From Methanohalophilus portucalensis (GTDB lineage: Archaea > Halobacteriota > Methanosarcinia > Methanosarcinales > Methanosarcinaceae): DNA of 64,000 nt. Position numbers and translations under genes: made by a program. How positions within the stretch are numbered: the stretch's first letter is position 1; each line of letters begins with the position of its first letter. The notes beneath the pieces were generated by a model. It was not told where the DNA came from. It saw only the letters and a list, made by a program, of their open reading frames with translations, and did not search any database. Shown in pieces: positions 2,489 to 58,440 of this stretch. Location: the NCBI RefSeq assembly GCF_002761295.1, contig NZ_CP017881.1, forward strand, positions 800,780 through 864,779, read 5' to 3'.

Positions 2489-5286
2489 TATATTTCCACG
2501 AATCCATATTTTTTCTCACGCATGCTAAAAGCAGGTTCGCCACCTTCAAGGATATTGCAAATCTGTTCTCTTATGGCTGGATTTTCAATTGCTCCAGATT
2601 CGTAACTTAAAACTTCGTCGTTATTTTTAGCTACGATTACCTGTTCTGCATCAGCATTTACAACTAAATTGGCGTTGTGTGTCACAATAATTACTTGCCT
2701 ATATTTTTTAATTTTCTCAAAAATTGGTACCAATGACTCCACAATAAATTCATTATCCAAGTCATCTTCAGGTTGATCAAAAACAAAAGGTTTTATGAAG
2801 GGGCTTGTAGCAAGTTTAATACATACATAAAAAGTCCCTCTCATACCAACTGAAAGTTGTCTTATTTCTTTCCCCTTATAGGTGGATTTTGATTGGACTT
2901 TCCAATACTTTTTTCTAGTTCTTTCCAATAAAAGTATCGAAAGGAACTCTATTGCACCACCTTTATTGAATAAATCAGAATCTAATGTTTCTGCTAAGTT
3001 TAAATAATTACCATCCAAGTAGACGATTTTCTCTCCTCTTAATAACTTTAAATAGTCGTCTTTACTTTTTATTTGAAAAATCTCCTCTATTTTTTCATTT
3101 TTTGATTGTAATTGTGTTTCTCGAAACTTACGAAGATTCAGACAGCCCAATATTTGATTGTAAAATTCATTTGAGTTAAAGACTTCATGAGCTTTTATTT
3201 CGATATCATCTAATAGATCTGCAATTAATTTTTTTTGTTCCTCATTCCAATAATTTTTTCCACTTTTTAATTGAATCCATTTGCTATTGATATTTTCTAT
3301 ACATTTTTCGTGAGCTTGTTCGATTAAGTCGGCTAATTCCTTTAACCGTGTATACTTATATTCAATATCTTCATTTTTTAAATCTATTTCTTTAATTCTT
3401 CTATTATATGTATCAATTTCATCTTGGTAGATAGATATTTGTTCTAACAGTCCACTTATATCTGTTTTTATTCCAGCATCCTTAAATTTTGTATCGATTT
3501 CAAAATTATCATCCTGTAATGTTGCAATTTGTGTTTTTGCATTAGCTAAAAAATTATTAATAGACAGTCTTTGAGTTTGGATATTCAATTGTGGAATTTT
3601 ATCCTCTACAATATCACTATATTCATTTAAAATTTGTATGTCGTTATTTATCTGATCTTGAAAATGTAGCAAATTATTAAGTACTTGTTGCGCTTTTGTG
3701 CTTTGTTCACTTATTTTGTTTATTTTATTAAGATTTCCTATATATTTGTCTATTAATTGACGATTTTCTTCAGTAGTGATTGTTTTTATTAAATCTTCTT
3801 TTTCCTTTTTCTTTTTTCGATTATAATCATAAGAATTCAAATAATTACCATTACTATCCTTATAGTTAAACCAATTTTTAATTTCAAAAATTTCATTGAT
3901 TAAGCGTTCAATTTCAGATTCTGGAACATCTAATGAATCCGCTTCATTGGTTAAATTGAGAAGTTTTTTGATCTCGTCATCTAACTTATAAGAATTTTGT
4001 GGATCAACTATTTCTTTTACTTCTCCTTGATGAATGTGTAAATAATCTAAGTTGTTTTCATTCTGAATATGATATTCATTTGTAGTTCCATCTGTTTTTT
4101 GATAAGTAACTGTGAATTTGTCATTTGGAATTGAAATCTCACGTTCACGTCCATTTTCTTGAAATTTATTAAATGTTTTAGCAATTGAATCGAGAAGTAA
4201 ACTTTTACCTTTGCCTCTTCCTCCAATTATAGTCACAAGGTTTTGACTCAATTCCAGTTTAGTTTCATCAAATTTCACCTCACTATGATTGAATATATTT
4301 GTATTCGTTATGTTGATTTCTGAAAAGAAAGACTTTTTGAAATCTTCTTGTGGATTACCTTCTTGAACTCTTACACGCTCTGAACCTTCAAATATAATTT
4401 GCCTTAACCCTTCAAATGTAGGGTTAGCTTTTATCCAATTAAAACAGTTTCCTATTCTATCTTTTGTTGTATCTTTATATGAATATGTATGAGCATCACT
4501 ACAATCGAGAAGGAGATCATTTACTTCCTCCTTACTTAATTTTTCTCTAGCATTGACATATTTTTCTACGGATTTTGCAGATGTAAATACCAAGTGAGCG
4601 TTATTAATGATTGTTTTTTTATCAGTTACTGAACTATTTGACCATTGAAGCTCATCCCACTCAGTTTTGCCGACTGCTATTAAGTATTTGTCTTTAAAGT
4701 AGTGTCTATTTTTTAGTATTTCAAATATCTTTTTTTCGTCAAGGTTGAGATTGTTAAATCCCTCTATCAAATCAGATTGGTATTTAGGTAGTTCTTTATC
4801 GGGAACATTAGATTTGATTTTTTTTCCAAGATCTTTTAAGCTTTCTTTAGTAATACTTCCATTCCAATAATCTCGGTTTATATCGGAACTTAATTTGTAT
4901 GATTGTTCCAAAGCATTTAAAAATTGACTTTCTATCGTATTAATATCAAGTTCATTTGAAAAAATCACATGTAAATTAATTCTTTTAGTGTTTCTAAACT
5001 CAACACCAGCAAATTTTTGTATTCTAAATTCAACAACTGGCAATATTAGTTTTATATTAGATAATCTTCCATTAATTTCTTTTTCGTATTTTATTTTCTT
5101 ATATCCATCAAGAAATAGATAATCATTTATTCCAATGACTTTAAATTCTTCTGGCAGTGCTTCGAGATCTTTTAAGAATTTTTCCCATACATCCGCAGAA
5201 TTACCATAATCGTTAATGATTGATTCAGGTGTATGAATATGTAAATCCCATTTCGTCCATTCAGATCCTTTTGGAAATTCTGACAT
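2488..5286 (-). CDS. PHP-domain/SMC-like ATPase (TrlF-type) within the restriction operon
   Basis: This 932-residue protein joins an N-terminal PHP-like phosphoesterase domain to an ABC/SMC-type ATPase. The metal-binding motif DLHIHT is at residues 14-19. The Walker A motif GGRGKGKS is at about 355-362, and a long charged coiled-coil-like region spans about 470-720. A signature-like LSVGMRG lies near 808-815, Walker B FVFDQPEDDLD near 832-843, and an IVTHNANLVV switch near 865. The order matches the TrlF family of AAA-like ATPases often carried inside type I restriction loci. Its function is not settled, and a nucleic-acid sensing or nuclease role in defence is inferred from context. It lies 21 bases after hsdR and overlaps hsdS by one base. 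The gene is clearly more AT-rich than hsdR, suggesting separate acquisition. Confidence 0.8.
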   Translation of the reverse strand: MSEFPKGSEWTKWDLHIHTPESIINDYGNSADVWEKFLKDLEALPEEFKVIGINDYLFLDGYKKIKYEKEINGRLSNIKLILPVVEFRIQKFAGVEFRNTKRINLHVIFSNELDINTIESQFLNALEQSYKLSSDINRDYWNGSITKESLKDLGKKIKSNVPDKELPKYQSDLIEGFNNLNLDEKKIFEILKNRHYFKDKYLIAVGKTEWDELQWSNSSVTDKKTIINNAHLVFTSAKSVEKYVNAREKLSKEEVNDLLLDCSDAHTYSYKDTTKDRIGNCFNWIKANPTFEGLRQIIFEGSERVRVQEGNPQEDFKKSFFSEINITNTNIFNHSEVKFDETKLELSQNLVTIIGGRGKGKSLLLDSIAKTFNKFQENGREREISIPNDKFTVTYQKTDGTTNEYHIQNENNLDYLHIHQGEVKEIVDPQNSYKLDDEIKKLLNLTNEADSLDVPESEIERLINEIFEIKNWFNYKDSNGNYLNSYDYNRKKKKEKEDLIKTITTEENRQLIDKYIGNLNKINKISEQSTKAQQVLNNLLHFQDQINNDIQILNEYSDIVEDKIPQLNIQTQRLSINNFLANAKTQIATLQDDNFEIDTKFKDAGIKTDISGLLEQISIYQDEIDTYNRRIKEIDLKNEDIEYKYTRLKELADLIEQAHEKCIENINSKWIQLKSGKNYWNEEQKKLIADLLDDIEIKAHEVFNSNEFYNQILGCLNLRKFRETQLQSKNEKIEEIFQIKSKDDYLKLLRGEKIVYLDGNYLNLAETLDSDLFNKGGAIEFLSILLLERTRKKYWKVQSKSTYKGKEIRQLSVGMRGTFYVCIKLATSPFIKPFVFDQPEDDLDNEFIVESLVPIFEKIKKYRQVIIVTHNANLVVNADAEQVIVAKNNDEVLSYESGAIENPAIREQICNILEGGEPAFSMREKKYGFVEI

Positions 5287-40110: not shown

Positions 40111-41019
40111 TCACTCCCCCGCAAACTCCGCCAGCCCCTCCTCCAGGGATACTTGCGGGACAAATCCCAGTGTTTGCGCAGCGCTGATATCGGCCACGCT
40201 GTGGCGGATGTCGCCGGTTCGGGCCTCCCGGTATTCTACAGGCAGATCACTGTCAAAGACGTCCTGCACGATCTCGGCGAGCCGGTTGACGGTGGTCTGT
40301 GTGCCTGTGCCGGCATTGAAGACCCTGCCGATGGATTCGTCCTTTTCGATCAGCAGTTCTACCAGATCCACGATGTCGTGCACGGAGATGAAGTCGCGGG
40401 TCTGCTCGCCGTCGCCGAAGATTACCGGGGATTGGGAGGCTTTGGCACGTTCGATGAATTTGGTGATGACACCGGAGTAGGGATTTGAGGGGTCCTGACG
40501 GGGGCTGTAGATGTTGAAGGGGCGCAGCACTGCCACGGGCAGGTCGAAGGCGCGGTGGTACATCAGGGCGTACTGTTCGCCTGTGAGTTTGCTGACGCCG
40601 TAGGGGGAGAGGGGTTGTGTGGGATGGTTCTCATCGATGGGAGTGTGCAGGGTATCGCCGTAGATGGCGGCGGAGCTGAAGTAGACGAAGCGTTCCAGGT
40701 TGGTCTGGCGGGCAGCCTCGAGGAGGTTGAGGGTGCCGAGAACATTGTTTTCGCAGTCAAAGAGCGGCTGGTCCAGGGAGCGGTTGACATCGATCTGGGC
40801 GGCGGTGTGGATGACGACATCGGCCTGCCCGACCAGCCGCACCACTTCCGGGCCCTGGATGTCACCGATGGTCAACTGGACGCCTGCGGGCACGTCGTGT
40901 CGGCAGGGAGAGGAGGTGTTGTCCAGCACGATTACCTTGTTGTCAGTGCAGAAGCGGTCGGTCAGATACGAGCCGACCTGGCCGAGGCCGCCGGTGATGA
41001 GGATTGTTTGGGAGTGCAT
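40111..41019 (-). CDS. NAD-dependent nucleotide-sugar epimerase/dehydratase
   Basis: This 302-residue extended short-chain dehydrogenase has a Rossmann GGLGQVGSYL near the start and the catalytic Tyr-Lys pair in SPYGVSKLTGEQY, as in UDP-glucose 4-epimerase and related enzymes. It should act on a nucleotide sugar for the surface glycan. ATG 41019 starts just before the Rossmann strand; a longer frame to 41097 adds 26 unlikely residues. The gene is GC-rich, unlike the AT-rich sulfotransferase beside it, so it likely has a different history. Its 3' end is duplicated at 38572. Confidence 0.85.
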   Translation of the reverse strand: MHSQTILITGGLGQVGSYLTDRFCTDNKVIVLDNTSSPCRHDVPAGVQLTIGDIQGPEVVRLVGQADVVIHTAAQIDVNRSLDQPLFDCENNVLGTLNLLEAARQTNLERFVYFSSAAIYGDTLHTPIDENHPTQPLSPYGVSKLTGEQYALMYHRAFDLPVAVLRPFNIYSPRQDPSNPYSGVITKFIERAKASQSPVIFGDGEQTRDFISVHDIVDLVELLIEKDESIGRVFNAGTGTQTTVNRLAEIVQDVFDSDLPVEYREARTGDIRHSVADISAAQTLGFVPQVSLEEGLAEFAGE

Positions 41020-41035
41020 GGTTTGTTGGAGGGGT

Positions 41036-41300
41036 TTTTGAAATATAAATTTGGTGTAGACTTGTATTTCAACTCCGTTTGTTCTTTTAAAGTACAATTT
41101 CTTAATCCTTAGCGAGATGTTTATATGTGTATAATAATATTTATGTAGGATGTATCCATCCTCCTAAATAGTATTCCAAAAGGCGAAATATCCATTAAAT
41201 TAACTGGTGGTATTAGTCCGAACAAAGTGATTTTGAAAAAGTTAGGGATGCAGACATAATAATAACGATGGATACTTGTAGCAAAACAATTTAAAAAATC
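41036..41300 (+). repeat. Direct repeat copy 1 with stump of a GT2 gene
   Basis: This region parallels 42355-42830. Both contain a near-identical TATAAAT..GGTGTAGAC..GTATTTCAA block (41041-41072; 42361-42391), a later CCATTAAATT.ACTGG.GGT block, and then GT2 coding sequence. Here the gene is mostly deleted: GATTTTGAAAAAGTTAGGGA joins a piece encoding DADIIITMDT (41247-41275), matching the GT2 gene at 42775. The two copies flank the first sulfotransferase. Confidence 0.7.
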
Positions 41301-52450: not shown

Positions 52451-53050
52451 AAGGAGATCGCCTTCGTTATCCACAATGTGGGTGATGTGATGATGGATGC
52501 TGTGCTCTACAACAGCAAAATCGCAGAGGAAAAGTCCACAATTCTTGGAGATCTGGACCTCAGTGCAGGGCAGTACCTGCTTGCCACCGTGCACAGGGCT
52601 TCAAACACCGATTCCAAGCAAAACCTCACCTCCATTATCAATGCCTTTGTGGACTGCGGAGAAACAATCGTATTTCCGGTACATCCCAGGACTGCCAAAT
52701 ACATGAAGCAGTACGGCCCGTGGGAAAAAGCCAGGGCAAATCTGGTGCTTACAGAACCCGTGGGCTATCTGGACATACTCAAACTCACAGGTAGTGCAAA
52801 GAAGGTGTTGACCGACTCTGGAGGGTTGCAGAAGGAAGCCTACATGCTGGGTGTGCCCTGCGTCACTCTGTGGGAGAATACTGAGTGGGTGGAGACCGTG
52901 GAGGCTGGCTGGAATGTGCTGGTAGGAGCGGAGTATGGGGAGATTTTGGAGAGTATTGCAAGTTTTCAAGACAACTCCACACAGGCAGATGTTTTCGGAG
53001 ATGGCAATGCCAGTGGAAGGATCTGTGAGATATTGAATCCCAAGTCCTAA
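52451..53050 (+). pseudogene. wecB: UDP-GlcNAc 2-epimerase, C-terminal half only
   Basis: About 200 residues match the C-terminal half of non-hydrolysing UDP-N-acetylglucosamine 2-epimerase: HNVGDVMMDAVLYN, LATVHRASNTD, FPVHPRTAKYM, LTDSGGLQKEAYMLGVPCVT and WVETVEAGWNVLVG. The normal enzyme has about 360 residues, and the first 180 or so are missing. The preserved frame begins KEIAFVIHNVG, with only a GTG (52478) as a possible start. The GC-rich coding sequence abuts the AT-rich glycosyltransferase 12 bases upstream, so the cut is probably a recombination joint. Confidence 0.8.
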
Positions 53051-53131
53051 TCCATCGGCATCAATATCTTTATTAAGACTCTCTTCTTTTAAAGGACAAT
53101 CTGAAGGTTGTTTGCGATAATTGGAGATATA

Positions 53132-54616
53132 ATGCCTTCCAAAAGTACCAGTGAAAAAAGATTTGCATCAGATGTCCTGACCCTTGTGGGTGGTACGGGT
53201 ATTGCCCAGATAGTGTCTATTGCAGTTGCACCTATATTAAGTCGTATTTATTCTCCTTCTGATTTCGGGATTCTTGCACTGTTTGTTTCTTTGAGCGGGA
53301 TACTGGGAGGAATTGCATGTTTCAGATATGAAATGAGTATTATGCTGCCTGATTCCAAGGAAGAGGCAGATACTCAGTTGATATTAAGTATTGTGGTGGC
53401 ATTTCTTTTTTCGGCCATAACGGCAATTCTGTTCCTTCTATTCAAAAACCCTATTATGCAAATATTCAATGCACAGGAACTGGGAAACTATGTATATCTC
53501 ATCCCATTATTCATTTTTCTGCAGGGTATGTTTCTGTCTTTGAATTTCTGGAATTCCCGCAATAAGAAATTTAAGAATATGTCCCATGCAAGGATATCTG
53601 CGTCCCTTTCACAGGCAGGCACACAGGTGGGGGCAGGAGGGCTCGGGTATGTAAGTGGTATATCCCTGATTCTCGGGTCCCTGGTAGGCAAAGTTATTTC
53701 CGTTATGACCCTTATCCATTCGGCTTTCAAAAAAGGAGTATATGTCAGGCAGGTTAATTTTAAAAGTCTTGGTGCCGGAATCCGGCGATATAAAAAATTC
53801 CCACTCATAGACACCTGGTCAACCCTGCTTAATTCCCTGTCATGGCAACTACCCGTTCTGTTGCTTTCAGCCTTTTTCAATTCTGCTATTGTAGGTTTTT
53901 ATTCACTTGGATTTCGCCTGTTGCAGATGCCCATGAGTTTTATTGGCCGTTCCATCTCCCAGGTATTTTACCAGAGAGCCACTGAATCCAAAAAGGAAGG
54001 TACTCTGAATGTACTTGTGGAAAATGTATTCAGAATATTGGTACTGATCGGACTGTTTCCAATTCTCATTCTTACTCTTTCAGGAGATGCAATATTCGGT
54101 GTAATTCTGGGGATGGAATGGGTGGAAGCAGGAGTCTATGTTCAGATTCTGAGTATCTGGGGATTCATATGGTTTATCTCATCTCCCTTAAGTACCCTTT
54201 ATGTGGTATTTGAAAAACAAGAATTCGGACTAAAATATAATATCTTCAATCTGATCACAAGAGCACTCTCCCTTCTGATAGGTGGATACTTGGGCGATGT
54301 ATATGTGGCTTTAGGATTATTTGCAATATCCGGGATTTTTGTTTACGGCTACCTTTGTCTGAAGATGCTGCATTATGCAGGTGTCAAAAACTCCACTGCC
54401 GGCAAGATAGTATTCTCCAGTTTTAAGTTGTTCGTCCCGGCTGCACTTGTACTTGTTGTACTAAGGTTATTTAGTGATAATCTCTATTTGATTACAGGAG
54501 TGGCTGTTTCTCTGTGTATTACCTATTACCTGTACATTTTGAAAACAGATTCACAACTGCAATCCTTACTGGAAATATTACCAATAGTGCCGGATTCGAT
54601 GAAAAAGAGAAAGTGA
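53132..54616 (+). CDS. Polysaccharide flippase (MATE/MOP superfamily, Wzx-like)
   Basis: This 494-residue protein has 12 to 14 membrane segments. The start FASDVLTLVGGTGIAQIVSI and the IYSPSDFGILALFVSLSGIL segment are typical of O-antigen and teichuronic-type flippases. It should move the lipid-linked glycan across the membrane. ATG 53132 follows GGAGATATA; an upstream ATG frame lacks a site. It is the last gene of the rightward glycan block and converges with the OLD nuclease gene. Confidence 0.88.
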   Translation: MPSKSTSEKRFASDVLTLVGGTGIAQIVSIAVAPILSRIYSPSDFGILALFVSLSGILGGIACFRYEMSIMLPDSKEEADTQLILSIVVAFLFSAITAILFLLFKNPIMQIFNAQELGNYVYLIPLFIFLQGMFLSLNFWNSRNKKFKNMSHARISASLSQAGTQVGAGGLGYVSGISLILGSLVGKVISVMTLIHSAFKKGVYVRQVNFKSLGAGIRRYKKFPLIDTWSTLLNSLSWQLPVLLLSAFFNSAIVGFYSLGFRLLQMPMSFIGRSISQVFYQRATESKKEGTLNVLVENVFRILVLIGLFPILILTLSGDAIFGVILGMEWVEAGVYVQILSIWGFIWFISSPLSTLYVVFEKQEFGLKYNIFNLITRALSLLIGGYLGDVYVALGLFAISGIFVYGYLCLKMLHYAGVKNSTAGKIVFSSFKLFVPAALVLVVLRLFSDNLYLITGVAVSLCITYYLYILKTDSQLQSLLEILPIVPDSMKKRK

Positions 54617-54640: not shown

Positions 54641-56368
54641 TTAAATCTTGCTAAATAACAGATTAATTTCACATGGAATATTTGATTCATCGCAATAATC
54701 GGCTAGTATTTTACCAAAAATTATTTTAGTAAACTTTTTGCCACTTCCTTTATTTAGAGTCTTAAGTTCTGAACTGAATTTTATCTCAGAATTCGTAGAA
54801 CATTTATCTCTTATAGAAGCTATATTATCCAAATTCCATTGTGACCTGGCAATATCTTTACCATGTGTTTCCAAATATTTTTCCCAAGATTTATATAATG
54901 TCTCGTCTGAAAATGCATCTTCAAACTCTTTTTCCCCAATTGTAAATTGATGAGCATCTGGAATCTTCAATTTGTCAATCAGTTTTGCGGTATCTTCACT
55001 TGCATCATTGTCTTTGATAATAAAAATACTGTTTTGATCAAACAACTCCAACAAGGCTTTCGCAAATCCATGAATATTCTTAATACCCCCAGTATTGATT
55101 ACTTTAATCAAATCGCGGTTCATAGTTCGATTATTTATCTTTTGATATATGAGGGGCAAAAATTCTTTTTCTGTATCTCCTTCTACAATAATGATTTTTT
55201 TAGCAAAATACAAATAAATATTTTCAATTCCTAAATCACTTAATATTTTGTCAGACTCATCGGGTTTATCTTCAAGACATTTTAATTTGGTAAAATTGGA
55301 AGTTGGTTGGGAAAGTAATTTTATTTGTTTGGGTTTAACTGCATTGATCAAAAACGGAGAATGAGTTGTGAATATCACCTGACATCCCCTGTCTGCAAGA
55401 GTTTCAAGAACGTTCAGCAATTCTATCTGTGCTTTGACATGCAAGTGCGTATCAGGTTCATCTAAAATATATAATTTTGAATCTGAACTGGCACCTTCAC
55501 TACTGGCCTTATATTCCAATAAAGCCAAAGAAATTCTACGTTTGGTACCATCTCCTTTCTTATCAACCAGAATTTCCTGATTATTTTCCATGAAGAGAAC
55601 TTTTGGAGAAAGACTCAAATTTCGAGGTTCAAAAGAAGGTTCAACTTTAATATCAGTTAGATTTTTTAAGTATTGCTGTATATTTGTTAATATTCCTTTC
55701 GATTCTAGTTCTTCAGAGATAGTAGTTGCATAACTATCCAGTTCATCCTGAATAATTTCCTCAATTGTTTTATCACCAACTTTTGTATTCCATAGTTCCT
55801 TCTTTTTATCTTTAAGAAAAACTTCACTAAAAAAAGATTCTATATCCTCAAAATGTTTTCCATCGATTTGTACTTCATTCATTTCGGGTAAATTGACACC
55901 TTCAATAACAGGATTTTCATCACTTAATTTCTCAAAAATATTGGAAACCAAGGTATCCGCTCTACTATTCGAACGGACCGTGATACCAAGCATCTTTGCT
56001 AATTCCCTTATTTTTTCATCATCAGCATTAGCAATTGATTCACTCAATGATCCAAGATAATCTTTGACATAAGAAACAAAATTTACAGTGGGAATTGCAG
56101 AAAACTCAACATGAAGATTGCTTTTATCTGTACATATCATGTTATATTCAAAACTATCTGTTTCCAGAACCATTTTCATTTCTTCTTTACCATTAGTAAA
56201 ATCATCGGTATCAGGAGAATATTTGCCTGTAAAAATATCGATGCATTTTATCAAAGATGTTTTACCACTATCATTTTCTCCTACAAGCAATGTAATTTCA
56301 TCATCAAAATTTAATTTGAAATCACATAAGCAACGAAAGCCATCAACATAAATGCTGTGAATTCTAAT
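54641..56368 (-). CDS. OLD-family ATP-dependent nuclease, possible AUU start
   Basis: This AAA ATPase plus TOPRIM protein is of the overcoming-lysogenisation-defect (OLD) family. Walker A is LLVGENDSGKTS, followed by LYILDEPDTHLH (Walker B) and IFTTHSPFLI. The TOPRIM part has KIIIVEGDTEKEFLP and IFIIKDND. The domain clearly begins upstream of the first usual start codon (TTG 56290): IRIHSIYVDGFRC and FDDEITLLVGEN are in frame, with no ATG, GTG or TTG before a stop. ATT 56368 lies seven bases after GGAGG in GGAGGGTGA, so translation probably begins at AUU. It follows a frameshifted small gene and may be a two-gene defence unit. Confidence 0.82.
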   Translation of the reverse strand: MRIHSIYVDGFRCLCDFKLNFDDEITLLVGENDSGKTSLIKCIDIFTGKYSPDTDDFTNGKEEMKMVLETDSFEYNMICTDKSNLHVEFSAIPTVNFVSYVKDYLGSLSESIANADDEKIRELAKMLGITVRSNSRADTLVSNIFEKLSDENPVIEGVNLPEMNEVQIDGKHFEDIESFFSEVFLKDKKKELWNTKVGDKTIEEIIQDELDSYATTISEELESKGILTNIQQYLKNLTDIKVEPSFEPRNLSLSPKVLFMENNQEILVDKKGDGTKRRISLALLEYKASSEGASSDSKLYILDEPDTHLHVKAQIELLNVLETLADRGCQVIFTTHSPFLINAVKPKQIKLLSQPTSNFTKLKCLEDKPDESDKILSDLGIENIYLYFAKKIIIVEGDTEKEFLPLIYQKINNRTMNRDLIKVINTGGIKNIHGFAKALLELFDQNSIFIIKDNDASEDTAKLIDKLKIPDAHQFTIGEKEFEDAFSDETLYKSWEKYLETHGKDIARSQWNLDNIASIRDKCSTNSEIKFSSELKTLNKGSGKKFTKIIFGKILADYCDESNIPCEINLLFSKI

Positions 56369-56399
56369 ATGTCACCCTCCCTTTGCAAAAAAAATAAAA

Positions 56400-56713
56400 T
56401 TAAGAATACTTACCCCAGTCTCTTTCAATAAACCAATTTGGAGTCCACTTCACATAGTTTGCTGGGTCAAAAGATTCGTCGAGTATATCAATATTGATTA
56501 TTTGCCCGGGAAGTGGGGACAAATTATGCTTTCCATCAGGACTATTTAAATCATAGAAATGATAACGATCACTCATATCACTATATCTTCTACTTGGCCC
56601 ATAGTCAAAAGGAATACAGATTCGTCTGATTTTCCTTTATCCTGAGAATCAAAGAATACTTCTACTTTTTTCTTTTCATGTATTGCTTTTAAAAATATTT
56701 CTTTGTTGTTCAT
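56400..56713 (-). pseudogene. Small conserved protein ahead of OLD, one-base frameshift
   Basis: ATG 56713 follows GAGGGCGATTTGT. The protein starts NNKEIFLKAIHEKKKVEVFF; after GATAAAGGAAAA the frame is lost. One extra A in the run at 56630-56633 restores IRRICIPFDYGPSRRYSDMS, then DRYHFYDLNSPDGKHNLSPL, and the end NWFIERDWGKYS. The repaired protein would have about 104 residues. I recognise the general pattern of a conserved small protein but cannot give a function. It lies directly upstream of the OLD gene on the same strand. Confidence 0.65.
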
Positions 56714-57012
56714 ACAAATCGCCCTCTTTTATTTTTCTCTGCTAATTTCCCACCCTCATCAATAAAAATTAGACATAAAATCTCTAATTTAGATTGATTG
56801 AATATTTTATACTATTTGGAAATCAACATATTAATTGTTGAACTTTTATGAGGTGAATCAACAAATAAAGAGAATTGTCTGAACATATTTAAATATTTTG
56901 AATTGATTCCCTCACATAATACACTACCCACTACACGTTAGCTAATAGCCAAACAAAAATCAACCTTTATCTGAAAAAATTAGAGAAGGGATATATCAAG
57001 TGGGCAATCATC
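56714..57012. other. Gene-free AT-rich gap
   Basis: No gene, RNA or clear repeat is seen here. It holds the upstream region of the OLD operon (leftward) and the downstream end of the dehydrogenase gene. Confidence 0.6.
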
Positions 57013-58440
57013 TCACTTCACTTCATGTCCGTTCTTATCCCCTCTGCCAATCCCCTTATACACAAACCCCGCATCAATGAAAGCATCCGGCTCCACCACA
57101 TTCCTGCCATCCACGATAACAGGATGTGTCTGTCCGGACAACTCCTGCAACTGCCGGGGCTCCAAGGAATAATACTGCCTGTGCCCTGCAAAGACCACCA
57201 CTGCATCCACCCCGTCCAGTACTTCCTCCATATCCTGCGAGATCTCCACATCCGGATACAGCAGGACATGCGGATCGTGTACTTTGACTTCTGCACCAGC
57301 ATCGATCAATAGATCCCTATAGGGCTCGGCCGGTGTATTCCGGGCATCATCCGAATCATTGAGAAAGGCCCAGCCCAGAATTGCCACTTTTGAATTGGCG
57401 ATATTCTTATTGATACGCGCCAGGGCCTCCACTGTCAGATTGTACATATGCTCTGGCATGAAATCATTGATATGGCGGGCCGTGACGTAGAGCGAAGGTT
57501 CCTGAGGGAAATCCAGGTCTGCCTGTTTGGCGATCTGCAGACCGCGCTCCAGATGATAGGTGTCCTTGGTCAGACAATGTCCGCCCACCCCGGCACCGGG
57601 GTACAGTATCGCACGGGTGATGCCTTCGCCTTTCAGACTTGCCACACCTTCCCGTACATCATAGACATTGATTCCCATGGCCTCACAGTACAGGGCCAAT
57701 TGGTTGACAGCGGCAATCTGCAGGTCCCTGAATGTATTCTCGGACGTCTTGGTGACCTCGGCTGCAGTGGCGGACATGGGGATTACACGACCCTTTGTGA
57801 GCACCGGCTCGTACAGGTCCACGGCTCTTTGAGTACTGACATCATCGATCCCACCCACGATACGGTCATGCTCCTGGATATTCTGCAACAGACGGCCCAC
57901 CATGACGCGTTCCGGTGCATGGGCCAGGGCGAAATCCTCGCCTGCTTTCAAACCGGATTCCTCTTCCAGGATCTCTCTGGCCATACCTGTAGTGGTTCCG
58001 GGAGTGATGGTGGATTCCAGCACCACCAGCATACCGGGCTGCAGATACTGGCCTACATGGCGAATCCCGGCCTCCAGTGCCGAAAAATCCGGCAGCAGAT
58101 CCTTCGGGTCCTTGAACGGGGTCTGTATGGCCAGTGTAACCGCATCCATCTCACCGAGCCGGGAAAAATCGGGAGTGCACTCGAACTTATCTTTTTCAAC
58201 TACCTTCTGCAATAAATCTTCCAGACCGGGCTCCTCGCCCTTCAGCGGACTTTCCCCACTATTTAGCAAATCGATCTTGTAGCCGGAAGTTGGAGAATTG
58301 CGCTGGAAACCCAGCACCTTGTCAAACTCCGCAGAATCGGCAAACAGGGCTGCTGCGGGAATGCCCACATAACCCATACCGATAACTCCTATTTTTTTGA
58401 TCGGCCCACGTTCTTCAAGTAATGATTGTAATTTATCCAT
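57013..58440 (-). CDS. UDP-N-acetyl-sugar 6-dehydrogenase (WbpA/WecC type)
   Basis: This 475-residue NAD-dependent nucleotide-sugar dehydrogenase has Rossmann GMGYVGIPAAALFA near 20, TITPGTTTGMA near 148 and the catalytic Cys in GAGVGGHCLTKDTYHL near 275-290. The C-terminal UDP-binding domain has AILGWAFLNDSDDARNTP. It should oxidise C6 of UDP-GlcNAc (WbpA) or UDP-ManNAc (WecC). With the Gfo/Idh, aminotransferase and acetyltransferase genes upstream, the WbpA role is preferred. It is split from them by a toxin-antitoxin pair. Confidence 0.88.
   Translation of the reverse strand: MDKLQSLLEERGPIKKIGVIGMGYVGIPAAALFADSAEFDKVLGFQRNSPTSGYKIDLLNSGESPLKGEEPGLEDLLQKVVEKDKFECTPDFSRLGEMDAVTLAIQTPFKDPKDLLPDFSALEAGIRHVGQYLQPGMLVVLESTITPGTTTGMAREILEEESGLKAGEDFALAHAPERVMVGRLLQNIQEHDRIVGGIDDVSTQRAVDLYEPVLTKGRVIPMSATAAEVTKTSENTFRDLQIAAVNQLALYCEAMGINVYDVREGVASLKGEGITRAILYPGAGVGGHCLTKDTYHLERGLQIAKQADLDFPQEPSLYVTARHINDFMPEHMYNLTVEALARINKNIANSKVAILGWAFLNDSDDARNTPAEPYRDLLIDAGAEVKVHDPHVLLYPDVEISQDMEEVLDGVDAVVVFAGHRQYYSLEPRQLQELSGQTHPVIVDGRNVVEPDAFIDAGFVYKGIGRGDKNGHEVK

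Follow-up and report, generated by a model that had tools for sequence, protein, structure and literature searches.

Class 1 OLD nucleases have been described as encoded by single genes, and those of classes 2 and 3 as occurring with helicase or retron partners; whether class 1 nucleases can defend alone is named as an open question (PMC10568477). For WYL domains, binding of nucleotides or of nucleic-acid fragments has been predicted, as has a role in regulating defence (PMC4012209). KTSC, called DNA-binding, stands beside an ATPase and a nuclease in HerA-KTSC-endoDNase systems (PMC9503650), and in the available part of a BREX survey OLD is found with HNH, REase or PIN nucleases and KTSC is absent (PMC12839542).

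The locus described here, from the archaeon Methanohalophilus portucalensis, holds an OLD gene behind a small WYL gene. It resembles class 1 OLD (P2 Old, Thermus scotoductus OLD), and the best solved-structure match of its OLD protein by sequence is 6P74, but class 1 genes are described as standing alone, whereas this and related loci have a small WYL or KTSC gene in front. Like Gabija (GajA-GajB, class 2 OLD), it places an OLD nuclease in a two-gene unit; Gabija has a UvrD-like helicase as partner, whereas here there is none and the partner is a small domain encoded in front. The WYL fold and the defence neighbourhoods of the small protein recall BrxR, CapW, DriD and PafBC, from which it differs in being a stand-alone protein of ~105 aa without a helix-turn-helix, encoded before a nuclease gene. 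The KTSC-OLD pairs carry OLD where HerA-KTSC-endoDNase systems carry the HerA ATPase. PDC-S06, a PADLOC candidate named as a single-gene type, follows the same WYL family in Arcobacter and E. coli, but is an AAA_13-type ATPase and not an OLD. Our literature search, which covered openly accessible papers, turned up none devoted to a unit of the WYL-OLD or KTSC-OLD kind; the terms WYL domain, OLD family and KTSC all occur in PMC7824862.

We analysed a stretch of 64,000 nucleotides (the window) from a genome (G000) assembled as a single contig of 2,084,875 bp. The features of the locus are as follows.

53108..54616, plus strand: border gene, flippase (named by eye), convergent; 96% identical in the congeneric genome G006, where it is also a border
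54641..56368, minus strand: OLD nuclease gene, ABC-type ATPase (AAA_15) and OLD-like Toprim, 575 codons from ATT, by Pfam, PADLOC and motifs
56366..56368, minus strand: probable AUU start codon of OLD, in the same column as the GTG, TTG or ATG of three homologues
56376..56380, minus strand: Shine-Dalgarno GGAGG of OLD, 7 nt before ATT; duplex energy -11.9 kcal/mol (20-nt leader)
56400..56636, minus strand: small WYL gene, second part, in another frame, 78 aa (P0002); 68% identity to the G010 copy; family modelled as a stand-alone WYL fold
56573..56713, minus strand: small WYL gene, first part, from ATG to an out-of-frame stop; N-terminus judged by eye to resemble that of L030, an intact copy from Argoarchaeum
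56722..56726, minus strand: Shine-Dalgarno-like GAGGG of the small WYL gene; anti-Shine-Dalgarno duplex -6.7 kcal/mol
57013..58440, minus strand: border gene, nucleotide-sugar dehydrogenase (named by eye); 95% identical in G006, also a border there

The protein encoded at 54641..56368 has the two parts that define the OLD family, an ABC-type ATPase at the N-terminus, bearing Walker A and B, and a C-terminal Toprim domain with Glu and DxD. It matched Pfam AAA_15 (3.1e-35), OLD-like_TOPRIM (PF20469, 2.6e-13) and PADLOC Old (2e-42), and the alignment with homologues showed intact Walker A (GENDSGKT), LYILDEPD (DEPD) and TTHS motifs together with VEG and DxD (DND). The locus departs from class 1 in that a WYL gene lies 31 nt upstream on the same strand, and from class 2 in that its neighbours are the convergent flippase and the sugar dehydrogenase and not a UvrD/PcrA/Rep-like helicase. 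A search of the class (237 genomes) gave 5 with a relative at E<=1e-20, counting that of the window; the closest relatives, at 58% identity, came from two genomes of another genus in the same family (G155/G178). Back-translated peptides retrieved no close relatives from genome contig or viral contig collections.

The original prediction held that no ATG, GTG or TTG lies ahead of the N-terminal strand that the protein needs, and that an ATT sits seven bases past a GGAGG. The sequence agrees on both points. On the minus strand the frame runs from a TGA stop (56374-56372) through CAT, ATT (56368-56366) and AGA to the stop at 54641; its first in-frame NTG is a TTG at 56290, 26 codons on, and GGAGG (56380-56376) ends exactly 7 nt before ATT. 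Pairing with the anti-Shine-Dalgarno, using letters that we assume for it, gave -11.9 kcal/mol for the leader of ATT, -6.7 for that of the small gene and -1.9 for that of the TTG at 56290. In the homologue alignment the ATT column was GTG in G155 (where the start is not unique, a second in-frame GTG lying five codons further up), TTG in G006 and, in Lewinella, ATG; the starts of the Deinococcus and Haloferax genes, however, lay a few residues off it. Synthesis from the TTG at 56290, attractive only as the first in-frame NTG, is highly improbable, since that codon lacks a Shine-Dalgarno site and its use would remove the N-terminal strand common to the homologues.

We counted start contexts over ~1.05 Mb drawn from three congeneric genomes, which gave 800 frames running from stop to stop and spanning 150 codons or more. 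GGAGG occurred 6-8 nt before an in-frame codon within the first 40% of the frame in 291 of the 800, and in three of the 800, the window OLD included, that codon was ATT, ATC or ATA with no NTG upstream or in the next 15 codons. The other two such frames are both in G000 (G000:C1:928190-929384, minus strand, and window about 40114-41164, minus strand) and have ATT or ATC 7-8 nt past GGAGG, with no NTG for 46 and 18 codons. No paper on an AUU start codon in a methanogen was found in the literature search.

The small upstream gene had been predicted to be codirectional with its own ribosome site, and its ATG (56713-56711) indeed follows GAGGG at -6.7 kcal/mol. The two halves of the gene lie in different frames that overlap near 56625-56640. 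The suggestion that the unit is now broken holds for the WYL gene, which is frameshifted, and is not supported for the OLD gene, whose motifs stay intact. The overlap falls at an A-rich stretch near 56630, where ribosomal frameshifting could in principle read through an intact gene; we consider this very improbable, as intact homologues are encoded in one frame and the other broken copies are broken elsewhere. Those copies, frameshifted or internally deleted, are each interrupted at a different place: L034 at 4967-5273, L032/L043 (one contig) at 3371-3689 and L024 at 1414-1581. In a control of little power for the frameshift rate of the assembly, on stretches of G000 that are not collinear, none of the comparable frames (eight of G006 and two of G004) was broken in G000; the reverse comparison, on nine and two frames, flagged an in-frame stop in one frame of G006 and a change of frame in one of G004.

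Searches of Pfam, PADLOC and PHROGs, and of NCBIfam with the window pieces only, gave no match of use for the small protein. The AlphaFold model of the intact L030 copy was a confident single domain (pLDDT 91) with the Sm/SH3-like WYL fold. In a structural comparison (VIA) the top 14 rows were all WYL proteins, including PafBC, BrxR, DriD and CapW (Z 8.1-11.9), and the first non-WYL row scored 7.2; structures of DriD and CapW with ssDNA were among the matches. Foldseek likewise gave WYL proteins as the best matches, but at a best E of 2.2e-3, with none at E<=0.001, and the Pfam WYL profile matched one of 15 family members (E 0.043). R31, C33 and R99 were invariant in the family alignment A3, and R51 nearly so; these may correspond to the conserved basic residues and cysteine of WYL domains (PMC4012209). 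At about 105 aa and one domain, the protein lacks the winged helix-turn-helix of the BrxR and CapW type. An Arcobacter plasmid has the order SbcD-SbcC-[small WYL family]-ATPase, and the corresponding slot of an Aliarcobacter plasmid, in SbcD-SbcC-[annotated WYL protein]-691-aa protein, holds an annotated WYL protein. Because both structural comparisons and this slot point to WYL, the small family is, as modelled, a stand-alone WYL domain without a helix-turn-helix.

Intact homologues of the small family were found in Candidatus Argoarchaeum, Gracilibacteria, Wolfebacteria, Staskawiczbacteria, Buchananbacteria, Lewinella and one archaeon without classification (10 loci in all, including two that are broken or cut), in 7 of 72,556 plasmid records, in 6 of 5,426 E. 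coli genomes and at 15 loci of viral contigs, seven with one identical protein; two queries found none in 50,697 phage records. Across the phylum (392 genomes) the profile of the small protein matched 2, G155 and the genome of the window; it matched 1 of 345 around Lewinella and 1 of 332 around a Buchananbacteria genome, in both cases the centre genome itself. In Argoarchaeum, viral contigs L059-L065 and small E. coli plasmids the WYL gene occurred with no OLD in the stretch read, which makes it a general accessory. Its neighbourhood elsewhere included a type I restriction operon, metabolic genes, a gene that by eye resembles a phage repressor and, three genes further on, an MmeI-like enzyme. 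On E. coli plasmids (L047, L048) and viral contigs (L066, L070, L071) it was followed by an uncharacterised protein of 237-241 aa, the L070 copy of which had no Pfam or PADLOC match; this is a possible second partner. The WYL gene also precedes the PDC-S06 ATPase, with a gap of 238 nt in E. coli and an overlap in Arcobacter (L049, 12001-14956; L050, 6001-8956, assigned via its shared protein accessions; L045, 5995-8426), and because of this position PDC-S06 may not act as a single gene.

The original prediction further proposed an undescribed two-gene unit. Pairing of the two kinds of gene recurs in Lewinella, where a gene of the same small WYL family ends 3 nt before an OLD (AAA_15 and OLD Toprim) with 24% identity to that of the window, and on the Deinococcus plasmid pDrdII, where a different small annotated WYL protein has a 4-nt overlap with an OLD of 34% identity. 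Plasmid pDrdII was the only one of the 72,556 plasmid records with an OLD matching the window's at 1e-15. Its WYL protein fell below the Pfam WYL cut-off (E 0.0045, 17.4 of 21.8 bits) and had no meaningful BLASTP match and a weak hhalign match (E 0.011, probability 3.9) to the small family of the window. A KTSC gene lies directly before OLD in G006, G138, G265, G211 and a Haloferax plasmid.

The exact pair is not conserved with the nearest OLDs. A search of the 237 genomes of the class for the small protein beside OLD in other archaea found the two adjacent only in the window's own genome, each being present in five of the 237 (the small protein at E<=1e-3). In G155 the small gene is a deleted copy far from OLD, and neither of the two closest OLDs (G155/G178) has an intact small gene upstream. 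Just downstream of these OLDs, and convergent with them, is a KTSC pseudogene with stops and frame changes (G155:C1:337736-337801, minus strand, and the same stretch in L025 of G178).

Among 42 archaeal OLD loci (41 with the window left out, plus G211), KTSC was directly upstream in four and a downstream KTSC pseudogene was present in one; among 52 Bacteroidota OLD loci the small WYL family occurred in one, Lewinella, itself the centre of the survey. KTSC is rare, with six genes over the cut-off in 22 OLD-carrying genomes chosen from 37, three of the six directly before OLD. The census of upstream genes covered NTG-started frames of at least 30 aa, and the KTSC gene of L189 (G211) was found by a scan with the KTSC profile. 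A 76-aa protein upstream of a Bacteroidota OLD (L201), KTSC-like by eye, was not confirmed by that profile.

We placed 92 OLD proteins, with census frames below 480 aa left out, in a tree built by a quick method with SH-aLRT support. The window fell into a group of eleven rows (support 83) along with its two nearest relatives, G006, G138, G211, Haloferax, Deinococcus, Lewinella and a pair of Streptomyces plasmids; the subgroups have four rows (support 100) and seven rows (support 99). A WYL or KTSC gene or remnant accompanied 9 of the 11 OLDs, the two Streptomyces members having no small partner, versus at most 2 of the 81 outside; one of those two is L201, counted against the pairing although its KTSC is unconfirmed, and the KTSC-OLD of G265 also lies outside the group. 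It was the pair itself that led to the window and to Lewinella, and OLD similarity that led to Deinococcus, Haloferax and Streptomyces. Fisher tests gave 7e-8 on 8/11 versus 2/81 (the ninth partner, KTSC of G211, was found afterwards), 3e-3 with intact genes only and 2e-4 once the window, Lewinella, G006 and a duplicate were excluded; these values are descriptive and not proof, because the 11-row group was read off the tree before testing. Shuffling labels on the tree revealed no clustering of KTSC or WYL alone (as low a value in 302 and in 500 of 500 shuffles) or of all labels together (82 of 200); the clustering claim is that either partner occurs inside one group.

An alternative is that the adjacency in the window is chance in a defence hot spot, with WYL as independent cargo and OLD as an ordinary single-gene OLD. 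The WYL family does lie beside or near such varied genes as those for PDC-S06 ATPases, the 237-241-aa protein, an MmeI-like enzyme and type I restriction, and its single Bacteroidota locus is the one on which that survey was centred. We nevertheless regard chance as doubtful, given the 3-nt gap and 4-nt overlap before OLD, the presence of KTSC in the same slot of G006 and the concentration of partners within a single OLD group. Gene order and phylogeny support a putative two-gene unit with an interchangeable small partner, WYL or KTSC.

In G006 the corresponding site, between the two border genes, carries a KTSC-domain gene and another OLD separated by 1 nt; the OLDs of the window and G006 share 29% identity over 315 aa. 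GC content was 0.30-0.32 between the borders and 0.39-0.44 and 0.52 outside. Beyond the flippase, a sugar epimerase homologue (window 52478-53050) is 190 aa long versus 360 aa in G006, with 91% identity over the common part, and adjoins a jump in GC from 0.34 to 0.52; the gene is truncated, at what is likely a recombination border.

Weak starts are not confined to the window. The archaeal OLDs of the group begin with ATT (window), GTG (G155/G178, G138, Haloferax) or TTG (G006, G211), and none with ATG; ATG is the OLD start in the bacterial Deinococcus and Lewinella and in G265 outside the group, and was the first possible start in 64 of 94 census genes. With columns matched by eye, the KTSC start column is ATC in G138, directly after a stop and 7 nt past GGAGG, and ATA in G211, about 8 nt past GGGGG. 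Counting the window OLD, there are three AUH start candidates among the 12 genes that make up six archaeal units (window, G006, G138, G211, G265 and Haloferax), a small post hoc series. The two KTSC genes lie at about 1954-2202 in L189 and about 2034-2249 in L176 (reverse-complement coordinates), and since their start columns hold ATA or ATC, gene callers limited to NTG will miss or shorten them.

The main rival to translation from AUU is that ATT arose by mutation of the start codon or by assembly error, making OLD a fresh pseudogene in a unit already broken. The adjoining WYL gene is frameshifted, breakage is frequent among genes for small partners (L034, L032/L043, L024 and, for KTSC, the remnants in G155/G178), and in reconstructed start changes among groups of close genomes AUG to AUU (1/61,358) and GUG to AUU (1/5,080) are very rare (PMC5622118). 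Against this rival, the 575-codon frame is free of internal stops and retains its ATPase and Toprim motifs, and ATC or ATA occupies the KTSC start column of two other units; the M. portucalensis draft genome, as reported, derives from Illumina data (PMC6491703). We judge start loss or assembly error unlikely, though it deserves more weight than the other alternatives. The window OLD is likely translated from AUU, judging from its leader and alignment column, and such initiation is rare.

Bacterial infC starts at AUU, a comparable throttle. By analogy, archaeal WYL/KTSC-OLD units might use AUH starts with a strong Shine-Dalgarno as a translation throttle, with initiation-factor stringency setting the ratio of sensor to nuclease; we offer this generalization as a long shot. 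The archaeal factor aIF1 is reported to disfavour non-canonical starts (PMC6237735), and AUH starts should therefore lower output.

Taken together, we favour, with a probability of roughly 0.55, a horizontally moving defence unit in which WYL precedes OLD, sensor-gated, able to exchange WYL for KTSC, throttled by AUU and with its WYL gene broken here; the ligand, the gating, translation from AUU and the defence role are what we infer. In this unit the small WYL protein would most likely sense a nucleic-acid ligand made in infection. Because it has no DNA-binding domain of its own, it would gate the OLD nuclease by contact, and might either license or restrain it. KTSC could replace WYL in the same slot. 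OLD would be read from AUU (GUG or UUG in sister units) behind a strong Shine-Dalgarno, keeping the nuclease scarce. As the WYL gene is frameshifted in this strain, the unit is probably crippled or ungated here, and may be either inactive or constitutively limited by the weak start.

If one OLD group normally has a partner, WYL or KTSC, the missing trigger or brake of that group may have escaped notice, since the partner genes are tiny, divergent and sometimes without a standard start codon. The units offer natural AUU, AUC and AUA start candidates in archaea. If true, the proposed gating would extend the WYL domain from gene regulation to the direct gating of a separate effector protein.
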